Below are positions 1 through 8,198 of a stretch of DNA of 64,000 nt, one piece after another; the stretch's first letter is position 1; every line of letters starts with the position of its first letter. Under the pieces are notes generated by a model that was given only the letters and a program-made list of their open reading frames with translations, had not been told where the DNA came from and ran no database searches. A program made the translations under genes and the position numbers. The stretch spans positions 1 through 64,000 of the forward strand of contig CAJXKK010000011.1 in NCBI GenBank assembly GCA_913055615.1, given 5' to 3'. The stretch comes from an uncultured Ectothiorhodospiraceae bacterium. GTDB lineage: Bacteria; Pseudomonadota; Gammaproteobacteria; XJ16; Halofilaceae.

Positions 1-98
1 TCCTCGATCTGCGGCAGCCGCATAAAGGTGGAACGGCCCGCGAACCGCGGCAGTTCACTGCCACCGATCGGGCGGAAAAAAGAATCCTCGTACACCAT
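1..98 (-). CDS. Ureohydrolase (agmatinase/guanidinobutyrase-like), 5' part only
   Basis: Only the first 32 codons are present; the gene runs off the left edge. The start at 96-98 is preceded by AGGAGA with good spacing. The translation begins MVYEDSFFRPIGGSELPRF and continues AGRSTFMRLPQIE. The 'PRFAGxxTFMRLP' stretch is typical of the N terminus of agmatinase, guanidinobutyrase and guanidinopropionase proteins, Mn-dependent (sometimes Ni) enzymes that remove urea from guanidino compounds. It is the last visible gene of the creatininase operon, 54 bases after the preceding dehydrogenase. Inference: it hydrolyses a guanidino intermediate of that pathway. The metal-binding residues lie outside the window, so substrate and even activity cannot be judged. 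Confidence 0.55.
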   Translation of the reverse strand, partial: MVYEDSFFRPIGGSELPRFAGRSTFMRLPQIE

Positions 99-152
99 TT
101 CCGGTCTCCTTGCTGATCTGCGGAATACGCACGGCGGATGCCCCGCCGGCGG

Positions 153-908
153 TCAGTACATGACGCTGCCGCCGTTGACCCCGAACGTCTGCCCCGTGAT
201 GAATGTCGCCTTCGGCCCCGCGAGAAACGCCGCCACAGCGGCGATCTCATCGGGGCGGCCAATCCGGCGGAGCGGGATGTCGCTCTCCTGCGCCCGTTGT
301 TCGTCGCTCATCACATCGGCACCGAGCATGTCGGTGTCCACCGGTCCCGGTCCGACCGCGTTCACGAGGATGTCGGGGGCGAATTCCAGCGCCCAGGTAC
401 GGGTCATGGCGCCGATTCCGGCTTTCGATGCACAGTAGGCCGTATTGCGCGCGCGTCCGAGATAGGCAAGATCGGACGCGATATTGATGATGCGGCCCCC
501 GCCGCCCTGTTCCACCATCCAGCGGATCGACTCGCGGCCGACCAGAAAGGTGCCGCGCAGATTGACCCCGATCACACGGTCAAAATCGGCCACCTCGGTA
601 TCCAGCAGCGGCTGTTCATGGAGGATGCCGGCGTTGTTGACGACGACGTCGAGACCGCCCAGGACGTCAATGGCACCGGTCACCAGCGCCTTGCACTCAT
701 CCTCTCGCGATACATCGGCCTCGATCGCCGCGGCGGCGGCGTCGCGCGTCCACAGTTCATCGCGCGTGGCCTCGGCTTCTTCCCGGCTGCCGTGGTAACC
801 GAACGCCACGCGCGCGCCGTCGTCCGCAAGCGCCATCGCGATGGCCCGGCCGATCCCGCGTGAGCCGCCGGTAACCAACGCGCGCACACCCGCGAGTGAT
901 CCACTCAT
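153..908 (-). CDS. Short-chain dehydrogenase/reductase (SDR), 251 aa
   Basis: A classical SDR of normal length. Visible motifs are the nucleotide-binding TGGSRGIG (residues 13-20), NNAG (91-94), catalytic Ser145 and the Tyr158-x3-Lys162 pair (YCASK). It resembles the FabG/3-oxoacyl reductase branch, but this branch includes many sugar and alcohol dehydrogenases, so the substrate is unknown. Its ATG overlaps the stop of the upstream SDR by four bases (ATGA type), so the two are translationally coupled. It is the sixth gene of the creatininase operon. An NAD(P)-linked oxidation of a product of the pathway is an inference from position only. Confidence 0.85.
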   Translation of the reverse strand: MSGSLAGVRALVTGGSRGIGRAIAMALADDGARVAFGYHGSREEAEATRDELWTRDAAAAAIEADVSREDECKALVTGAIDVLGGLDVVVNNAGILHEQPLLDTEVADFDRVIGVNLRGTFLVGRESIRWMVEQGGGGRIINIASDLAYLGRARNTAYCASKAGIGAMTRTWALEFAPDILVNAVGPGPVDTDMLGADVMSDEQRAQESDIPLRRIGRPDEIAAVAAFLAGPKATFITGQTFGVNGGSVMY

Positions 909-1684
909 GCCATTACCTCCCCGCGATCAATCGGGATCGCCTGGCCGGTCACGTTCGCCGCGGCATCCGACGCCAGGTAGAGATACAGCCCGGCCACATC
1001 GTCCGGTTCCATGAGACCGCCCAGCGACTGGTCGGCCGCGAGCTCCGCCGCCATCTCCTCCTCGCTCACGCCCTTCTCCTCGGCCATGACGGCCAGCGAA
1101 CGCAGCGAGGCCTCGGTCTTCACCCAGCCGGGACAGACCGCATTGACGCGCAGGCCTTTGGGACCCAACTCGCGCGACAGCGTCCGGGCGATGCCGATCA
1201 GGGCATGTTTCGACGCCGCATAGCCGGCGAAACCCGGAACGGCGGTCCGCCCCCAGATCGAGGACGTGATGAGGATGCGCCCGCCCGCGCCCATTTTCTG
1301 GACCGCCGCGCGCGTCACCCACCATGTGCCCAGCACATTCACGTCGATGATCCGGCGGAACGCGTCATCGACGGCCGTGTGCACTTCGCCCACCGGGGTC
1401 GGCAGCTCGATACCGGCGTTATTCACCAGTACATCGAGCGTCCCGATCCCGTCGAGCGCCTTGCGTACCGCCGCTTCGTCAGAGATGTCGCATCGCTGGG
1501 CCCGCACCCGGGTGCCCGCTTCCTCGCCGATGGTTCGCGCCGCCTGCTCCACCGTGGCGTCCTCGGCAATGATCGCGACCCTTGCGCCAGCCAGGGCGAA
1601 AGCCCGCGCAACCGCATAGCCGATCCCCCGGCTGGCACCAGTGACCAGTACGGTCTGACCGCTGAAATCGAAGCCCACGCTCAT
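905..1684 (-). CDS. Short-chain dehydrogenase/reductase (SDR), 259 aa
   Basis: Second SDR of the operon, in the same superfamily as its downstream neighbour but clearly diverged from it. The cofactor motif TGASRGIG is at 15-22, NNAG at 88-91, catalytic Ser142, and Tyr155-x3-Lys159 (YAASK). An acidic and helical insert (about 200-222) replaces the usual short substrate loop. The TGA stop overlaps the ATG of the next SDR, and the start follows the creatininase gene by 55 bases. Two paired SDRs suggest either a two-step oxidation or a heteromeric enzyme; the sequence does not decide between these. Substrate unknown. Confidence 0.85.
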   Translation of the reverse strand: MSVGFDFSGQTVLVTGASRGIGYAVARAFALAGARVAIIAEDATVEQAARTIGEEAGTRVRAQRCDISDEAAVRKALDGIGTLDVLVNNAGIELPTPVGEVHTAVDDAFRRIIDVNVLGTWWVTRAAVQKMGAGGRILITSSIWGRTAVPGFAGYAASKHALIGIARTLSRELGPKGLRVNAVCPGWVKTEASLRSLAVMAEEKGVSEEEMAAELAADQSLGGLMEPDDVAGLYLYLASDAAANVTGQAIPIDRGEVMA

Positions 1685-1739
1685 GACGATCCCCTGCCCT
1701 GTTCCGATCGATAGTCGGCCGCGAACACGGCGGTCGTAT

Positions 1740-2507
1740 TCACTCGATCAACTCGTGACGCACGGCGGCCGCCATATCCCCCCGGTACTGCTCGGCCATC
1801 AGCGCACCCTTCTCGGCCGACGCGGCCGCCGCCGAGGTCAGCGATCCCGTCCCCGGCACCCACTCGGGTCTGGCGGGCCAGACGTCGTATGGCGGTGCAT
1901 CCATCGGTGCGTTATCGGGGATACGGTCGCTGCGCACGAGTTGCGGGTAAAAGTGCAGCATCAAGGACGTCTCCAGCACGGCCGCGTGTTCCAGTTCGAT
2001 CCCGGGATACCCGTCCGGGAAAACCCGTTCGAGCGTCTCGCGGTTGAGGAATTCCCAGTGCTGCAGACACATCACCCGAAAGCCCGGATCCCCGACCTCC
2101 CGCATGGCGAGATCAATGCCCTCATTGAGAAACCACAGGTTCTCGAAGTGGCCGTCGATCACGCAGACCCGGCGCACACCGTGGCGCGCGAGTTCGCGTA
2201 TCACGTCGCGGATGACGGCGCTGAGGGTCGCGCCGTCGAGCCCGGTGCTTCCAGGGAAGGACGGACCACCGCCCGATCTCGGCATCGACTTGTAGCCATA
2301 GTTCACGGTCGGGGCGACGATGCCGTCGACCTCCCCCGCCACCATCTCCGCAATGGCGGTTGGCAGCAGATGATCCACCCCCATCGGCAGATGCGGGCCG
2401 TGCTGCTCGGTCATGCCGGTCGGCAGGAACACCACGGTGTCCTCGCGTAGACGCTCGGCAAACTCGGGCCAGGTCATCTCGGCCATCATCACGGTCGCGG
2501 AATTCAT
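1740..2507 (-). CDS. Creatininase family amidohydrolase (creatinine amidohydrolase-like), 255 aa
   Basis: Length and numbering match Pseudomonas creatininase, which interconverts creatinine and creatine. The five residues that bind the two metals in that enzyme have counterparts at the same numbers: Glu34 and His36 (TEQHG), Asp45 (VDHLLP), His120 and Glu122 (GHFEN). The conserved SGGGPSFPGSTGLDGATL block (78-95) and the LETSLML block (178-184) are close to true creatininases rather than distant family members such as MftE. One difference stands out: the first active-site Trp is kept (Trp151), but the second (Trp174 in the Pseudomonas enzyme, on the lid) aligns with Ile170. The enzyme may therefore act on a related cyclic amide. 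It is encoded after the ABC ATPase and before the SDR pair. Confidence 0.8.
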   Translation of the reverse strand: MNSATVMMAEMTWPEFAERLREDTVVFLPTGMTEQHGPHLPMGVDHLLPTAIAEMVAGEVDGIVAPTVNYGYKSMPRSGGGPSFPGSTGLDGATLSAVIRDVIRELARHGVRRVCVIDGHFENLWFLNEGIDLAMREVGDPGFRVMCLQHWEFLNRETLERVFPDGYPGIELEHAAVLETSLMLHFYPQLVRSDRIPDNAPMDAPPYDVWPARPEWVPGTGSLTSAAAASAEKGALMAEQYRGDMAAAVRHELIE

Positions 2508-2557
2508 GGATACTCCGTCACTCTGAAATGGTTCATCGCCGGCTCAACGGTGCCGGT

Positions 2558-3391
2558 TCAGTGGTCGGTGTCATCGCCTCCCTGCTCCCGCATCAACTTC
2601 AGGATATGACGCTCGAGATCGCCGTAACCGTCGAGGCCGATCAGGTCTTCCTTTGTGGTGATCCGTTTGCCCCGCTTGAAATCCGGGATGATCTCCTCGT
2701 GCACGGTACCCGGATGGCGGGACATGAATTCGATCCGATCGCCAAGGAAGATCGCTTCCTCGATGTCATGAGTCACCATGAGCACCGTTGTGTTCGCGGC
2801 CTCGACGATGCTCATCATCAGTTCCTGCATGTGCCACCGCGTCTGGGCATCGAGTGCACCAAAGGGCTCGTCCATCAACAGGATGGTGGGATCATTCGCG
2901 AGCGTACGGGCAATCGCGACGCGCTGTTTCATCCCGCCGGATAACTGCTTCGGATACGACTGACTGAATTTGGTGAGGCCGACAAGCTCGATGAAATGGG
3001 CGGCGCGCTCGCGGCGCTCCTTCTTCGGCACCGCGTTCAGGCGCATCCCGTATTCGACGTTCGCCTGCACGGTCAGCCAGTCGAACGAGGTGTAGGCCTG
3101 AAAGACCATGCCGCGCTCACGGTCCGCGCCGGCGATCGGGTGACCGTCCAGCATCAGCTCGCCCGAGGTCGGCTCCTCCAGGCCCGCGACCATGCGCAGA
3201 ACGGTCGATTTGCCGCAGCCCGAAGGGCCAAGCAGGACACAGACCTCATTCTCGGGCGTCTCGAAAGAGACCGCCTTGATCGCCTCGATATCGTCCCCGT
3301 GGCGCACGCGGAACGTCTTGCTCACGTCCTGCAGGTGCAACTTCGCCGATACGCCCGCGGTTGTCGTCGCACTCGTCATCTGCGGCTCCAT
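2558..3391 (-). CDS. ABC transporter ATPase (SsuB/TauB/ThiZ type), 277 aa
   Basis: Cytoplasmic ATPase of an import system. Walker A GPSGCGKST (55-63), Q-loop Gln98, signature LSGGMKQR (150-157), Walker B LLMDEP (171-176) and the switch His in THDIEEA (about 207-213) are all intact. This branch serves the nitrate/sulfonate/taurine/pyrimidine uptake systems that use NMT1-like binding proteins, which fits the binding protein and permease encoded upstream. A tail of about 30 residues after the catalytic core, ending in an acidic stretch, is ordinary for this group. It lies 92 bases after the permease gene and 50 before the creatininase gene, inside one operon. Confidence 0.92.
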   Translation of the reverse strand: MEPQMTSATTTAGVSAKLHLQDVSKTFRVRHGDDIEAIKAVSFETPENEVCVLLGPSGCGKSTVLRMVAGLEEPTSGELMLDGHPIAGADRERGMVFQAYTSFDWLTVQANVEYGMRLNAVPKKERRERAAHFIELVGLTKFSQSYPKQLSGGMKQRVAIARTLANDPTILLMDEPFGALDAQTRWHMQELMMSIVEAANTTVLMVTHDIEEAIFLGDRIEFMSRHPGTVHEEIIPDFKRGKRITTKEDLIGLDGYGDLERHILKLMREQGGDDTDH

Positions 3392-3483
3392 CGTTTTCCC
3401 ACCGCCGGGCTGCCCGGGGCGTCCTGTCGGTCACGGCTATCGCGGTACGCGTGCGGTCGATTCATGATCTGCACGACCGGCTC

Positions 3484-4308
3484 TTAGCGTTCGCCCTGGT
3501 CGAGATAGGGGAACAACACGCGATACAGCCAGCGGAACATCACATCGAACAATAGCCCCAGTACACCGATCGTCAGGATGCCGGCCATGATGTCGTCGGT
3601 ATGCAGGAACCGCCGCGCGCGCATCATCATGGCACCTATACCGGTGGTCGAGGCGATGATCTCGGCGATCACGAGGTAGGTCCACGCGATCGCCAGCATC
3701 TGCCGCATGGCGATCAGGACGTTCGGCAGAACGGCGGGCACGACCACGGTCCAGAGGATCTGCGAACGGTTCCCGCCGAGTGTCATGGCCGTTTCGATCA
3801 GCTCGGTGCGGACCTGTGCGGTGTGATCCATGATCAGCGTGATCAGGAAGAAGATCACCCCGAGGAACAGCAGCGCGAGCTTGGGTTCCTCGCCCGTGCC
3901 AAACCACATCAGCAGAATCGGAATAAATGCCGGTGCCGGGAGGTAACGCCACGCCGAAACGAATGGGTTGGCGAACGCCTCGACCGCCTTGAACGACCCC
4001 ATGAGGATACCGAGGGGAATGGCGATGACGCAGGCCACTGCGAAACTGCCGAGAATACGGGCGATACTGATACCGACATCGGACAGAAAGCCTCGTTCGG
4101 CGAACAGTTCGTAGAGCGTAATCAGGACGTCGACCGGTGACGGCACCAGCAGCGGATTCACCCAGCCACTGAGAACGGCGATCTCCCAGATCCCGAAAAA
4201 GATCACCCAGATCGAGACGCCAAGAATCAGTCTCCATGGCTGCCCCAGGGGCGTAAGGAACTCGAACCACCGGCGACGGTAGACGCTGCTTCCGGAGCGC
4301 ACTGTCAT
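3484..4308 (-). CDS. ABC transporter permease (SsuC/TauC-like), 274 aa
   Basis: Inner-membrane permease with six predicted hydrophobic segments and the EAA-type loop (TLGGNRSQILWTVVVPAVLP), which contacts the ATPase. It belongs to the BPD_transp_1 family of nitrate/sulfonate/pyrimidine importers. The reading frame is open for 34 codons further upstream, but the ATG at 4306-4308 is preceded by GGGAGG with proper spacing and gives a normal-length N terminus, so this start was chosen. The gene sits between the binding-protein gene, beyond a terminator and a 280-base spacer, and the ATPase gene. It imports the substrate delivered by the periplasmic protein encoded at 4639-5721. Confidence 0.9.
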   Translation of the reverse strand: MTVRSGSSVYRRRWFEFLTPLGQPWRLILGVSIWVIFFGIWEIAVLSGWVNPLLVPSPVDVLITLYELFAERGFLSDVGISIARILGSFAVACVIAIPLGILMGSFKAVEAFANPFVSAWRYLPAPAFIPILLMWFGTGEEPKLALLFLGVIFFLITLIMDHTAQVRTELIETAMTLGGNRSQILWTVVVPAVLPNVLIAMRQMLAIAWTYLVIAEIIASTTGIGAMMMRARRFLHTDDIMAGILTIGVLGLLFDVMFRWLYRVLFPYLDQGER

Positions 4309-4590
4309 GCACTGCCTCCCTGTCGCTGTTGCCGCACTCCCGAGGCGCCTATTCCGGGAATCCGTGCCATAGCCAGCCCACGGAACAGCGGACCCGGCTG
4401 TTCGGCGCATCCATCCGCCTCATCCCTCCCGTGCTGACGCGCGGGATCGCTCCTGACGAGTCCGCGAGCGATCGCGGGGCGCCCACGGTCGCCCTCATGC
4501 GAGTCGGGCGAGCGCTCGGGGTGGTCGCTGTGGGACATGTGCATCAGGAACATGGTTTTCCCCGACCGGCTTCCGGAGTGCGGCGGCACG
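4309..4590. other. Untranslated spacer inside the transport operon
   Basis: Roughly 280 bases between the terminator behind the binding-protein gene and the permease start. No convincing gene is seen on either strand; open frames here are short and lack ribosome-binding sites. It is probably the leader of readthrough transcripts reaching the permease. Confidence 0.5.
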
Positions 4591-4627
4591 AAAAAAGCGG
4601 GAGGACCGGCGTTCGGTCACTCCCGCT
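4591..4627 (-). terminator. Rho-independent terminator after the binding-protein gene
   Basis: On the minus strand the stem AGCGGGAG / CTCCCGCT (4620-4627 with 4596-4603) closes a 16-base loop and is followed by a run of T (complement of 4591-4596). It lies 12 bases beyond the stop of the binding-protein gene. Because permease and ATPase genes follow on the same strand, it probably acts as a partial terminator that keeps the binding protein in excess. Confidence 0.8.
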
Positions 4628-4638
4628 CAGGACCACGC

Positions 4639-5721
4639 TCAATTGGCCGAAATCGACTGGCGGAATCCCTCATCGGCCAGTTCCCGGGTGAGACTGCAGT
4701 CATAACCCGCCTCGGGGTCGTAGACCTCATCCATCAGACCGAGCTTGACCCACCACTCGTTGGTCAATTTAACGCTGTCCGCCATCGATCCATTCTCGAT
4801 GCCATGCGGCGGATCCCCGTCGAGTGCTCCGCAGATCCGTGCCACCTCATTGAAGTCCAGCATATACAGACCGTCCTCGAGGTATTTGCCGTTCGTACCG
4901 ACTACGGACTCCACATCAGCCTTTGACCATTGCAGATAGTCGGCGAACAACTGATTCACCTCGTCGGTATTCTCATGCCAGTACTGGACCCCCTCGAACC
5001 GGGCCTTGATCATATCCTTCGCCGCGGTCCGCCGGTTCTTGATGAATTCCGTATTCATGTACATCGCGTCCATGAAAATACCGGTATTCAGATAACGGGG
5101 CTGGCGGGTATCCGCCACCACCTTCGCCTCATCGATATTGTCGAGGACTCGCGTCACCCAGGGCTCGTACATGTAGGCCGCGGCAAGATCGCCGGACATG
5201 GCCGGACCAACCGCCTCGTCGGCATTGAGATTGACCCAGTTCACGTCATCTGGGGAGAGACCGATGCTGTCGAGCCACATGCCCGCCAGGATCTCGCCGA
5301 TATAGGCCTGCGGAGCGGCGACCTTGCGTCCCTTCAGTTCTTCGGAGCCCAGGTCTTTGGTCATAACGACCTTGTCCACGCCGTAGGAGATATTCAGCAT
5401 CGACACGAGCGCCACGTCGGTATCTCGCGCGATCGTGAACGGGGTGTATTCCGCCGTGCTCAGGTACACGTCGATCTGCCCGGCGGCCAAAGCGGCGTGC
5501 CCGCCCAGGGGATCCTCGAAAATCGTGAGGTTCAGATCGTATTCCTCTGCAAGGCCCTTTTGACGGGCCACCTCGAGGAAAGAGAAACCGGGCCAGGAGA
5601 CGTTGAGACCGATATCCACGGTCTCTTTGGCCTGTGCCGGCGCAACCCCGGCCATCAGCCAGGAGGAAGCGGCCAGAACCGTGGCCAGCAGGGAATGTCG
5701 TTTGGAGAAAGTCCAGCTCAT
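4639..5721 (-). CDS. ABC transporter substrate-binding protein, NMT1/THI5-like, 360 aa
   Basis: Periplasmic binding protein. A Sec signal peptide covers about the first 30 residues (basic SKRH, hydrophobic stretch, cleavage near AQA-KE). The body has the NMT1/SsuA-like features: a WPG motif near the start of the mature protein, a GQIDVYLST segment, and a long helical C-terminal domain. Family members bind pyrimidine precursors, nitrate, taurine, sulfonates or hydantoin-like compounds. The ATG at 5719-5721 was preferred to an in-frame TTG at 5736, because a G-rich Shine-Dalgarno stretch precedes it. It is the first gene of the operon, divergent from the LysR regulator. Given the creatininase downstream, a cyclic or guanidino nitrogen compound is the likely ligand, by inference. 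Confidence 0.88.
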   Translation of the reverse strand: MSWTFSKRHSLLATVLAASSWLMAGVAPAQAKETVDIGLNVSWPGFSFLEVARQKGLAEEYDLNLTIFEDPLGGHAALAAGQIDVYLSTAEYTPFTIARDTDVALVSMLNISYGVDKVVMTKDLGSEELKGRKVAAPQAYIGEILAGMWLDSIGLSPDDVNWVNLNADEAVGPAMSGDLAAAYMYEPWVTRVLDNIDEAKVVADTRQPRYLNTGIFMDAMYMNTEFIKNRRTAAKDMIKARFEGVQYWHENTDEVNQLFADYLQWSKADVESVVGTNGKYLEDGLYMLDFNEVARICGALDGDPPHGIENGSMADSVKLTNEWWVKLGLMDEVYDPEAGYDCSLTRELADEGFRQSISAN

Positions 5722-6069
5722 CGTGGTACCCCCCAAGGCAGGAACCTTGTTTTGTCCGTTCCGCCGCGACGGCGGGCCGTGTGTTCAATCATGGCCGGAT
5801 TCTCCCCGGCGCGTTCACCGCCCGACCGTCGCGCTTCACCCATGCAGCCATGGGACGGATTCGAGTGTGGCCCCGAATTCCGTCTCCGACCATTCCCGTA
5901 TTTCAAAGCGGAGTTTGCCGGGCGACAAAGTAATGCCGCTCCGACCTCGGGAACGGCCCTGCGGGGTCGGGCCAATTCCGATCCCGCCGCGTTTCTGCCA
6001 GGATGGGCGACGAGGGTGACCGGGCCGTGCCTGCACACGAATGACCGGCCCAGCCATGGTCGATACCGC
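5722..6069. promoter_or_regulatory. Divergent control region between the transport operon and LysR gene
   Basis: A 348-base gap between two divergent starts, the usual place for LysR-type control of the neighbouring operon. I see no gene and could not single out one T-N11-A operator or a strong sigma-70 promoter with confidence. The sequence is less GC-rich around 5870-5930, which would suit a promoter. Confidence 0.5.
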
Positions 6070-7026
6070 ATGACGGCAAGGCATACCAACGTCCCGAACC
6101 TGACCGACTTCGATCTGAAGCTGCTCCGGGTCTTTCACGCGGTCGTCCAGTGCCAGGGGCTTGCCGCCGCCCAACCGGTGCTCGGTCTGTCGCTGTCCAC
6201 CATCAGTATCCAGTTGAAACAGCTTGAAGAGCGGCTTGGCTTCACGCTCTGCGAACGAGGCCGCAAGGGGTTCGCGCTCACCGAGGAAGGTGAACGCATC
6301 CACCAAAGCCTTAAGCCGCTGTTCGAATCCATCGGCGGTTTCCGCGATGTCGTCGCGGAAGTACGCGGCAGCCTCAGCGGCGATCTGCATTTCGGCGTCG
6401 TCGACGCACTGGCGACCAATCCGGACGCTTCGCTGCCGGCGGCTTTCCAGGCATTCGCCCGACAGGCACCGGACGTGCACCTGCATGTCGACGTTTCCTC
6501 GCCGGAAGAACTGAGCCAGGGGCTCGTCGAAGGCCGCTATCACTGCATCCTCACGCCCGTTCTGCCGGAGCCGGATTCGCTGGAGAGCGTTCCCGTATTC
6601 GAGGAGCTGCAGCGCCTCTACTGCGGCGCGGATCACCCCCTGTTCTCCGAGGACGATCCCGAACGGATTCTGGAGGCTCTGGAATCCGCGACCTTCGTCG
6701 GTAAAAGCTATGTCTCGCTGCCCTCGATCTGCGACCCGCGCCCACAGGTGGAGGGGCCTGTCGTATCGCACATGGAGAGCAACGCCCTGTTGATACTCAG
6801 CGGCAGCTATGTGGGCTATCTGCCCGAACATTTCGCGGCCCACTGGGTTCACGAAGGCCGGATGCGCGCGCTCGCGCCGGACCACCTCGCATTCGCGACG
6901 CGTTTCTATCTTGCGACACACAAGTACCACTGCTCGCGGTCGGTGCAGGCGTTCCGTGACTGCATGCTGGAGGTGCTGAAGCCCGGCACGGCAACGGCGA
7001 ACCCGGCCCCGGGCACATCCGACTGA
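6070..7026 (+). CDS. LysR-family transcriptional regulator, 318 aa
   Basis: N-terminal winged helix-turn-helix (about 14-73, with the STISIQLKQLEERLGFTLCER recognition part) followed by a LysR substrate domain (about 95-300). The open frame extends far upstream without a stop, but the ATG at 6070 places the HTH at the usual distance from the N terminus, so it was chosen. It is transcribed away from the binding-protein/creatininase operon, the classical LysR arrangement, and is probably its inducer-responsive activator. The inducer is unknown. Downstream lies a hairpin with a T-rich tail (around 7107-7137) that can end its transcript. Confidence 0.88.
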   Translation: MTARHTNVPNLTDFDLKLLRVFHAVVQCQGLAAAQPVLGLSLSTISIQLKQLEERLGFTLCERGRKGFALTEEGERIHQSLKPLFESIGGFRDVVAEVRGSLSGDLHFGVVDALATNPDASLPAAFQAFARQAPDVHLHVDVSSPEELSQGLVEGRYHCILTPVLPEPDSLESVPVFEELQRLYCGADHPLFSEDDPERILEALESATFVGKSYVSLPSICDPRPQVEGPVVSHMESNALLILSGSYVGYLPEHFAAHWVHEGRMRALAPDHLAFATRFYLATHKYHCSRSVQAFRDCMLEVLKPGTATANPAPGTSD

Positions 7027-7044
7027 GACCGTCACGCCTCGACC

Positions 7045-7076
<32 letters not shown>

Positions 7077-7098
7077 GAATCCACGGTTGCCGGAACCC

Positions 7099-7158
7099 GA
7101 TACAGACAAAGCCCGGCTGGTCAGCCGGGCTTTGTTTGTGTGGCGTCCCCAAGGGGAT
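7099..7158 (-). repeat. Partial duplicate of tRNA-Glu 3' end plus terminator
   Basis: About 59 bases match 7269-7327: the hairpin AAAGCCCGGCTGGTCAGC... and then the last 18 bases of the tRNA-Glu gene (TGGCGTCCCCAAGGGGAT on the + strand). The rest of the tRNA is missing. Between the copies (7159-7268) lie two GC-rich hairpins and no gene. The hairpin copy has T-rich sequence on its + strand side and can also serve as terminator of the LysR gene. Best explained as the remains of a tandem tRNA-Glu copy. Confidence 0.75.
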
Positions 7159-7268
7159 AGCGCGGCCCGTCCATGGGCCGCGTCCTTCGGACTCGCTTCG
7201 CTCGCGCCGGATTGCTCCCGGCAATCCGGTCGAACCCGGAGGGGTTCTGCCGCACCCTCGCAAACCCC

Positions 7269-7304
7269 ATACAAAAAAAGCCCGGCTGGTCAGCCGGGCT
7301 TTGT
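7269..7304 (-). terminator. Rho-independent terminator of tRNA-Glu
   Basis: Read on the minus strand, the stem AAAGCCCGGCTG / CAGCCGGGCTTT is followed by a run of seven T. It begins a few bases after the CCA end of the tRNA gene. Confidence 0.85.
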
Positions 7305-7309
7305 CTGTA

Positions 7310-7385
7310 TGGCGTCCCCAAGGGGATTCGAACCCCTGTTGCCGCCGTGAGAGGGCGGAGTCCTCGGCCACTAGACGATGGGGAC
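7310..7385 (-). tRNA. tRNA-Glu (anticodon CTC)
   Basis: A 76-base cloverleaf with encoded CCA. The acceptor stem pairs GTCCCCA with TGGGGAC, the T arm has the GGTTCGAATCC consensus, and the anticodon loop reads CTCTCAC, with CTC as anticodon for GAG codons. Many gammaproteobacteria use only the TTC isoacceptor, so a CTC species fits a high-GC genome rich in GAG. A strong terminator follows. Confidence 0.92.
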
Positions 7386-7421
7386 CTTGTTCAGTTGTAG
7401 GCGTGCCGTAATCCCCGGAAA

Positions 7422-7518
7422 CGTAGCCCGGATGAAGGCGAAGCCGGAATCCGGGAAGCGCGGCCGACCTGGACACTGACCATCCCCGGATTCCGCCTTC
7501 GGATGCATCCGGGCTACG
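7422..7518. repeat. REP doublet, family A (GTAGCCCGGAT type)
   Basis: Two inverted copies of the family A repeat: GTAGCCCGGATGAAGGCG at the left and its complement ending CATCCGGGCTACG at the right, about 30 bases apart. It can fold into a long hairpin between the tRNA gene and the macro-domain gene. Confidence 0.85.
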
Positions 7519-7652
7519 CGCTTCGCCGCTCGCCCCGCCGAGCGGGGCTCTTATGGTATTGCAGATCGCTCGATTACGAAACACCCCGGTTCGACGCGAG
7601 AGCGTTTTGCACGGATAATTGTCGCGTGGCCACGCACCTGCGGGAGGTCGCC

Positions 7653-8198
7653 ATGCGTGTGGAGCGTAACGGTCAGTCGATCGAGACTTGCCGGGGCGAT
7701 ATCACGCGGCAAGAGGTCGACGCGGTGGTGAACGCCGCCAACGCCCAGCTTGCCCCCGGCGGCGGTGTCGCGGGGGCGATTCATCGGGCGGCAGGGCCGG
7801 AATTGTGGGAGGCCTGTAGGCCGCTCGGCGGCTGCGGCGTCGGTGAGGCCAAGGTCACGGACGGGTTCGGATTGCCGGCACGCAAGATCGTGCATACGGT
7901 CGGACCGGTGTATGCCCGAGATGAACCCTCGGCTGAACTGCTGGCGGCCAGCTACCGCAACAGTATCGCCGCCGCCGATGGCGTGGCGGCCCGCTCGATT
8001 GCCTTCCCGGCGCTGAGCACCGGGGCCTTCGGGTACCCGATGGAGGCCGCGGCGGAGGTCGCGTTCCGGGCACTGATCGAGGGCCTGCCGGGCTGCGCCT
8101 CGCTGCGCGAGGTCCGCATGGTCCTGTTCGCCGATGCCGATGTGGCCGTCCACGACCCGGTCCTGAGGCGGCTGGCGAGCGCTGCCGGCTGGGAATAG
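7653..8198 (+). CDS. Macro-domain protein, O-acetyl-ADP-ribose deacetylase type, 181 aa
   Basis: A single MacroD/YmdB-like domain of normal length. Signature segments are GDIT (15-18), NAAN (27-30), GGGVAGAIHRAAG (36-48) and ALSTGAFGYP near residue 125, which together form the ADP-ribose pocket and active site. Such enzymes remove acetyl or ADP-ribosyl groups from ADP-ribose derivatives. The start at 7653 follows GGGAGG at the right distance; the open frame extends upstream into the REP doublet without a better site. Single-gene unit, followed by a methyltransferase gene on the same strand. Confidence 0.9.
   Translation: MRVERNGQSIETCRGDITRQEVDAVVNAANAQLAPGGGVAGAIHRAAGPELWEACRPLGGCGVGEAKVTDGFGLPARKIVHTVGPVYARDEPSAELLAASYRNSIAAADGVAARSIAFPALSTGAFGYPMEAAAEVAFRALIEGLPGCASLREVRMVLFADADVAVHDPVLRRLASAAGWE

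Follow-up and report, generated by a model that had tools for sequence, protein, structure and literature searches.

The 64,000-nucleotide stretch of DNA from an uncultured Ectothiorhodospiraceae bacterium that was analysed here (the window) opens, in its first 5.7 kb, with seven colinear minus-strand genes encoding the substrate-binding protein, permease and ATPase of an ATP-binding cassette (ABC) importer, a creatininase-family enzyme, two short-chain dehydrogenases (SDR1 and SDR2, whose genes overlap by 4 bp) and a ureohydrolase. Position 1 of the window is the first base of a contig of the assembly (C11). A second contig, C57 (locus L009), terminates in 77 bases identical to the start of C11, and the joined frame encodes a full arginase/agmatinase-family ureohydrolase of 320 amino acids. 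In the 10 kb to the left of this gene lie a SRAP gene and then unrelated genes, and no creatinase, urease or hydantoinase was seen in that interval. Given the join and the unrelated genes beyond it, the complete operon has seven genes, none of them for a creatinase. The first-pass annotation had noted a creatininase homologue, an NMT1-like importer, two SDRs, the start of a ureohydrolase and no visible creatinase, and suggested that, together with a LysR regulator, these would make up a complete system of uptake and degradation of an unfamiliar type. All of this stands: every gene is present and colinear, the operon is joined and complete across the two contigs, neither a creatinase nor an N-carbamoylsarcosine pathway adjoins it, and no published description of such a unit was found in the library searched.

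Conservation and regulation of the cassette

A scan for relatives of the cassette, with one genome per species, yielded 19 loci from salt-loving and marine bacteria, namely Halomonadaceae, Oceanospirillaceae and several families of Alphaproteobacteria. The gene order (binding protein, permease, ATPase, creatininase, SDR1, SDR2, ureohydrolase) is kept in 19 of 19, one of which (L022) ends inside SDR1 at a contig end, and this conservation is far beyond chance. Beyond the seven genes only a regulator recurs among these loci, and its type varies with the lineage: it is a LysR protein in the window and in halomonads and a TetR protein in the others. The cassette has probably spread horizontally. 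When seven halomonad-type intergenic regions are aligned, a CAAA-N6-TTTG dyad is conserved between variable flanks, and in the window this dyad is a possible LysR operator. Neither a guanidine riboswitch nor any other RNA element was detected by Rfam in the window and L009, a tRNA being the sole match. No att repeat of at least 14 bases tied to the tRNA was found around the cassette, the far side of the operon included. The tRNA gene (7313-7385) follows the LysR gene and is itself followed by a gene that, judged by eye, encodes a macro-domain-like protein (7503-8198). The features of the locus are collected in Table 1.

Table 1. Features of the operon and its regulatory region, in window coordinates
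Feature	Position	Strand	Basis
Ureohydrolase, start (320 aa in all)	1..98, extends into L009 as far as 9694	-	77 bp shared by the two contigs, reading frame joined; nearest PDB entry GpuA 3nip
SDR2, short-chain dehydrogenase, S(D/E)LxxLGR signature	153..908	-	PF13561/PF00106; motifs intact
SDR1, short-chain dehydrogenase, SSIWG signature	905..1684	-	PF13561/PF00106; cofactor and YxxxK motifs intact
Creatininase-family amidohydrolase, Trp174 to Ile	1740..2507	-	TIGR04448, 340 bits; 22-row clade, support 100/100
ABC ATPase, taurine/nitrate type	2558..3391	-	PF00005; kept in 19/19 loci
ABC permease, TauC/SsuC type	3484..4308 (reading frame open from 4410)	-	PF00528; TauC-like; kept in 19/19 loci
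Periplasmic substrate-binding protein, NMT1/SsuA type	4639..5721	-	PF09084, PF13379, TIGR01728; first gene in 19/19 loci
CAAA-N6-TTTG dyad in the regulator-operon interval, putative LysR operator	5904..5917	.	Conserved in 7 aligned halomonad-type intervals
LysR-type regulator, divergent from the operon	6070..7026	+	Pfam HTH_1 and LysR_substrate; 71-75% orthologue in six halomonad loci (L010-L015)

A creatininase-family enzyme without Trp174

The creatininase-family enzyme of the window scores 340 bits against the TIGR04448 model (curated cut-off, 235), is approximately 48% identical to the creatininase of Pseudomonas putida and keeps all the metal-site and catalytic residues of the latter (E34, H36, D45, H120, E122 and H178). 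Of the two pocket aromatics that would close over the substrate, W154 is kept and Trp174 is replaced by isoleucine; in addition, D175 is replaced by glutamate (P. putida numbering). Creatininases were sampled from gammaproteobacterial, Burkholderiales-order, alphaproteobacterial and phylum-wide genomes and from plasmids, their gene neighbourhoods were read, and 73 sequences were aligned. Trp174 is present in 18 of 18 copies that are linked to a creatinase or to a creatinine deaminase or hydantoinase, that serve as the P. putida reference, or that could not be assigned (two copies). It is missing from all the remaining 55, namely 29 from module B, the kind of cluster to which the cassette described above belongs, 21 from a second kind of gene cluster (module C, see below) and five that accompany an isochorismatase or GbuA-type gene. 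The context labels come from neighbourhood BLAST alone, with the creatinase-like protein of L155 being only a 38% match, and some of the module B and C members among the 55 have lost parts at contig ends.

In the phylogenetic tree, the window copy belongs to a well-supported clade (22 rows, 100/100) that is the sister group of module C (95/89), and it lies outside the separate, supported clade (98/90) that unites the creatinase-linked copies with the P. putida enzyme. The deepest forks are weak, and both the residue at position 174 and the gene context are clustered on the tree. Within-genome comparisons show the same division: the genomes of L015 (Aidingimonas lacisalsi) and L028 (Oricola nitratireducens) each encode a second creatininase above the cut-off (L171 and L170, respectively) that adjoins a creatinase and carries Trp174, and their cassette copies have isoleucine. 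By its sequence, the window enzyme is of a kind distinct from the creatinine-pathway creatininases. Trp174 together with the neighbouring genes separates the two kinds, and genomes that contain both offer a ready experimental control.

The only creatininase in the window genome is the cassette's own. Of the six Creatinase_N proteins encoded there, one is a true creatinase, located on another contig (C1), with 575 bits to the structure 1chm and 63% identity to a creatininase-linked creatinase; in L169 (7479-11096), the genes that follow it encode a binding protein of polyamine type and an AraC regulator resembling GlxA, with no creatininase.

These data bear directly on a further proposal of the first-pass annotation, in which the ureohydrolase could stand in for creatinase. 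In the breakdown of creatinine, creatininase would then convert creatinine to creatine, the ureohydrolase would split creatine into sarcosine and urea, and the SDRs would be accessory. Such a scheme is compatible with the passing of the TIGR04448 cut-off, the retention of the metal ligands and W154, the SoxB-type sarcosine oxidase encoded in the window genome, the similar size of guanidinopropionate and creatine, and the absence of creatinase from 8 of the 18 cassette genomes searched. The other 10, however, do encode a creatinase, as does the window genome, so that the cassette occurs both with and without this enzyme, which argues against the ureohydrolase as its substitute. Moreover, Trp174 is found in every creatinine-pathway copy examined and in no SDR-linked creatininase, so that the creatinine reading is disfavoured; the metal-site His120 is asparagine in a sub-clade of 14 cassette relatives (L016-L028 and L092; e.g. 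L018, 10001-10780) in which the other metal-site residues are kept; the W174-bearing creatininases of the L015 and L028 genomes are the ones that adjoin creatinase; both SDRs are always there, and plain creatinine offers them no step; and, among characterised enzymes, the ureohydrolase comes closest to a guanidinopropionase and not to a creatine hydrolase. We consider this scheme unlikely, and the substrate of the cassette is most likely not creatinine. Of the earlier interpretation, the unit itself, the assignment of the ureohydrolase to the guanidino-acid type and the missing neighbour pathways are supported, and the replacement of creatinase is not.

The pairing of a single creatininase with a single, distant creatinase in the window genome would also suit two separate duties, the creatininase supplying creatine to that creatinase and the SDRs and ureohydrolase acting on some other, unrelated alcohol or acid with a guanidino group that shares the importer. 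Given the loss of W174, the lack of creatinase in the eight genomes mentioned above and the linkage of the SDRs to creatininase, which is tight and independent of gene order in modules B and C, this seems very improbable.

The dehydrogenase pair, module C and the ureohydrolase

The cofactor and catalytic motifs of SDR1 and SDR2 are intact, and their respective signatures, SIWG (present in most relatives) and S(D/E)LxxLGR, are largely common to modules B and C, which suggests that the two modules share a core reaction. Module C comes from genomes of the Burkholderiales-order sample and from further gammaproteobacterial genomes (L065, L066, L099-L117 and L129-L131). It typically consists of a substrate-binding protein, a fatty-acid-desaturase-type protein, SDR1, SDR2, an EamA transporter, creatininase, a biuret-hydrolase-like protein of the isochorismatase family and a lactonase-like protein of the metallo-β-lactamase (MBL) fold. 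The place of the ureohydrolase is thus taken by an isochorismatase-family amidase closest to biuret hydrolase, and some of the clusters also contain a CDA-type deaminase. The exchange of a guanidino hydrolase in module B for a carbamoyl hydrolase and deaminase in module C points to a ring that contains N-C(=X)-N. Near or next to the lactonase-like gene, L066 (6796-7563) and nine other module C loci encode a protein of approximately 255 amino acids; the L066 protein has no match in Pfam or NCBIfam.

IolN, 3-dehydro-scyllo-inosose hydrolase, acts after two dehydrogenations, and the presence of two dehydrogenases beside a creatininase-family hydrolase follows the same logic. By analogy, the creatininase-family enzyme, instead of acting as an amidohydrolase, could cleave a C-C or lactone bond in a substrate that has undergone two oxidations by the SDRs, with the ureohydrolase removing a guanidino side group. 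The window enzyme does show a weak match to IolN (76 bits against a cut-off of 245 for NF041098), and the MBL proteins of module C are lactonase-like, but the creatininase model is far closer (340 bits), and the swap of the guanidino hydrolase for a biuret-hydrolase-like enzyme in relatives fits amide-ring chemistry. Cleavage of this kind is, in our view, an unlikely explanation.

Other genomes of Alphaproteobacteria type (L133, L136, L137 and L153) also have the SDR1-SDR2-creatininase trio together with a ureohydrolase, but in a rearranged order. In L133 (6012-7924), two adjacent ureohydrolase genes stand behind the trio, one GpuA-like and the other only ~35% related, and their products could form a heteromer. 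On the short contig of L157 (1-1173), an argininosuccinate-lyase-family gene is located directly upstream of the trio, in the place of the importer. The cassette on a Salipiger plasmid (L092) has an NtaA/DmoA-type FMN (flavin mononucleotide) monooxygenase gene (6590-7903) between importer and creatininase, and its binding protein is of the urea-carboxylase-associated type (TIGR03427, over the cut-off).

The solved structure nearest to the window ureohydrolase is that of the 3-guanidinopropionase GpuA of Pseudomonas aeruginosa (3nip), with 64% identity and 465 bits; matches to other PDB entries reach 147 bits for GdmH (7esr) and 70 bits for MetCaCb/MfmAB (8snf, 8x3g). The arginase-family metal ligands and the catalytic histidine are kept. 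The equivalent of GpuA Tyr157, which we take to be a specificity determinant of that enzyme (methionine in GbuA), is tyrosine in the window and in every B1 ureohydrolase and phenylalanine in two B2 copies. The ureohydrolase tree is poorly resolved, and a single cassette clade excluding GpuA is not rejected (p-AU 0.33). The GpuA-like pocket suggests that the guanidino acid released by ring opening would be short, roughly as large as 3-guanidinopropionate.

Direct observation covers the integrity of the operon, its conserved gene order, the retention of catalytic residues and the distinctness of its creatininase from those of the creatinine pathway. On this basis we propose, with a probability of about 0.5, that the cassette serves the catabolism of a guanidino compound other than creatinine itself, cyclic and bearing at least one alcohol group; what we infer is the class of substrate, the sequence of the steps and the formation of urea. 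The substrate would be imported by the NMT1-type ABC system, its hydroxyl groups would be oxidised by SDR1 and SDR2 with NAD(P), the creatininase-family enzyme would hydrolyse the acyl-N bond of the ring to give the short guanidino acid, and the GpuA-like ureohydrolase would release urea from it, so that a small amino or keto acid would remain. The nearest structural guess would be a dihydro-isocytosine-type ring, which would give a 3-guanidinopropionate-like acid, or a hydroxylated analogue of creatinine. The window genome encodes neither urease nor allophanate hydrolase, so that the gain for the host would probably be the carbon skeleton and its amino group, not urea nitrogen.

Several points weigh against this proposal. 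That Trp174 takes part in creatinine binding is something that we presume from crystallographic work; the ligands accepted by NMT1-type binding proteins and by SDRs are very diverse; the pocket stretch around Tyr157 differs among the halomonad, alphaproteobacterial and oceanospirillal ureohydrolases, the fine specificity of which may vary by lineage; the Salipiger plasmid cassette has no adjacent ureohydrolase; and urea nitrogen would be of no gain to the window host, given the missing enzymes.

Since the trio is conserved while the terminal hydrolase is exchanged, an undescribed route for the use of cyclic guanidino or ureido compounds as nutrients is indicated. More broadly, and tentatively, at somewhat short of even odds, we suggest that in marine, halophilic and other Proteobacteria the SDR pair and a creatininase devoid of Trp174 open a hydroxylated cyclic guanidine, the route being ended by a guanidinopropionase-type ureohydrolase in a guanidino branch or by a deaminase and a biuret-hydrolase-type amidase in a ureido branch. 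If so, the parent compound would be an unrecognised nutrient. In the library searched, no paper was found that describes module B or module C, that brings creatininase together with guanidinopropionase, or that joins creatininase and Trp174; PMC12508155 and PMC9772407 served as background on guanidino chemistry only. There is a consequence for annotation, too: copies of this lineage exceed the curated cut-off for creatininase, and one of them, on the Salipiger plasmid, carries the annotation creatininase and the GO term for creatinine metabolism, yet these enzymes most probably do not act on creatinine.

Comparison with known systems

Creatinine pathway I of P. putida (creatininase, creatinase, sarcosine oxidase) shares with the cassette a TIGR04448 family member, 48% identical, with the same metal-site residues and W154. 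The cassette differs in having no adjacent creatinase and no W174, in the addition of two SDRs and a ureohydrolase, and in the position of its creatininase outside the creatinase-linked clade. The use of 3-guanidinopropionate by P. aeruginosa is similar in its ureohydrolase, GpuA, with which the catalytic residues and Tyr157 are shared, and presumably in LysR regulation of the gpu locus. To our knowledge, that locus contains neither a creatininase nor an SDR pair, and the cassette adds to the GpuA system an enzyme of ring-opening type and two dehydrogenases. The guanidine and metformin ureohydrolases GdmH and MetCaCb/MfmAB have the arginase fold and hydrolyse guanidino compounds, but they match the cassette enzyme much more weakly than GpuA does (147 and 70 versus 465 bits), and no guanidine riboswitch was found at the cassette. 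Finally, the IolN-type inositol route likewise pairs two dehydrogenases with a creatininase-family hydrolase, whereas the cassette enzyme fits the true creatininase model and is accompanied by a guanidino hydrolase and an NMT1 importer.

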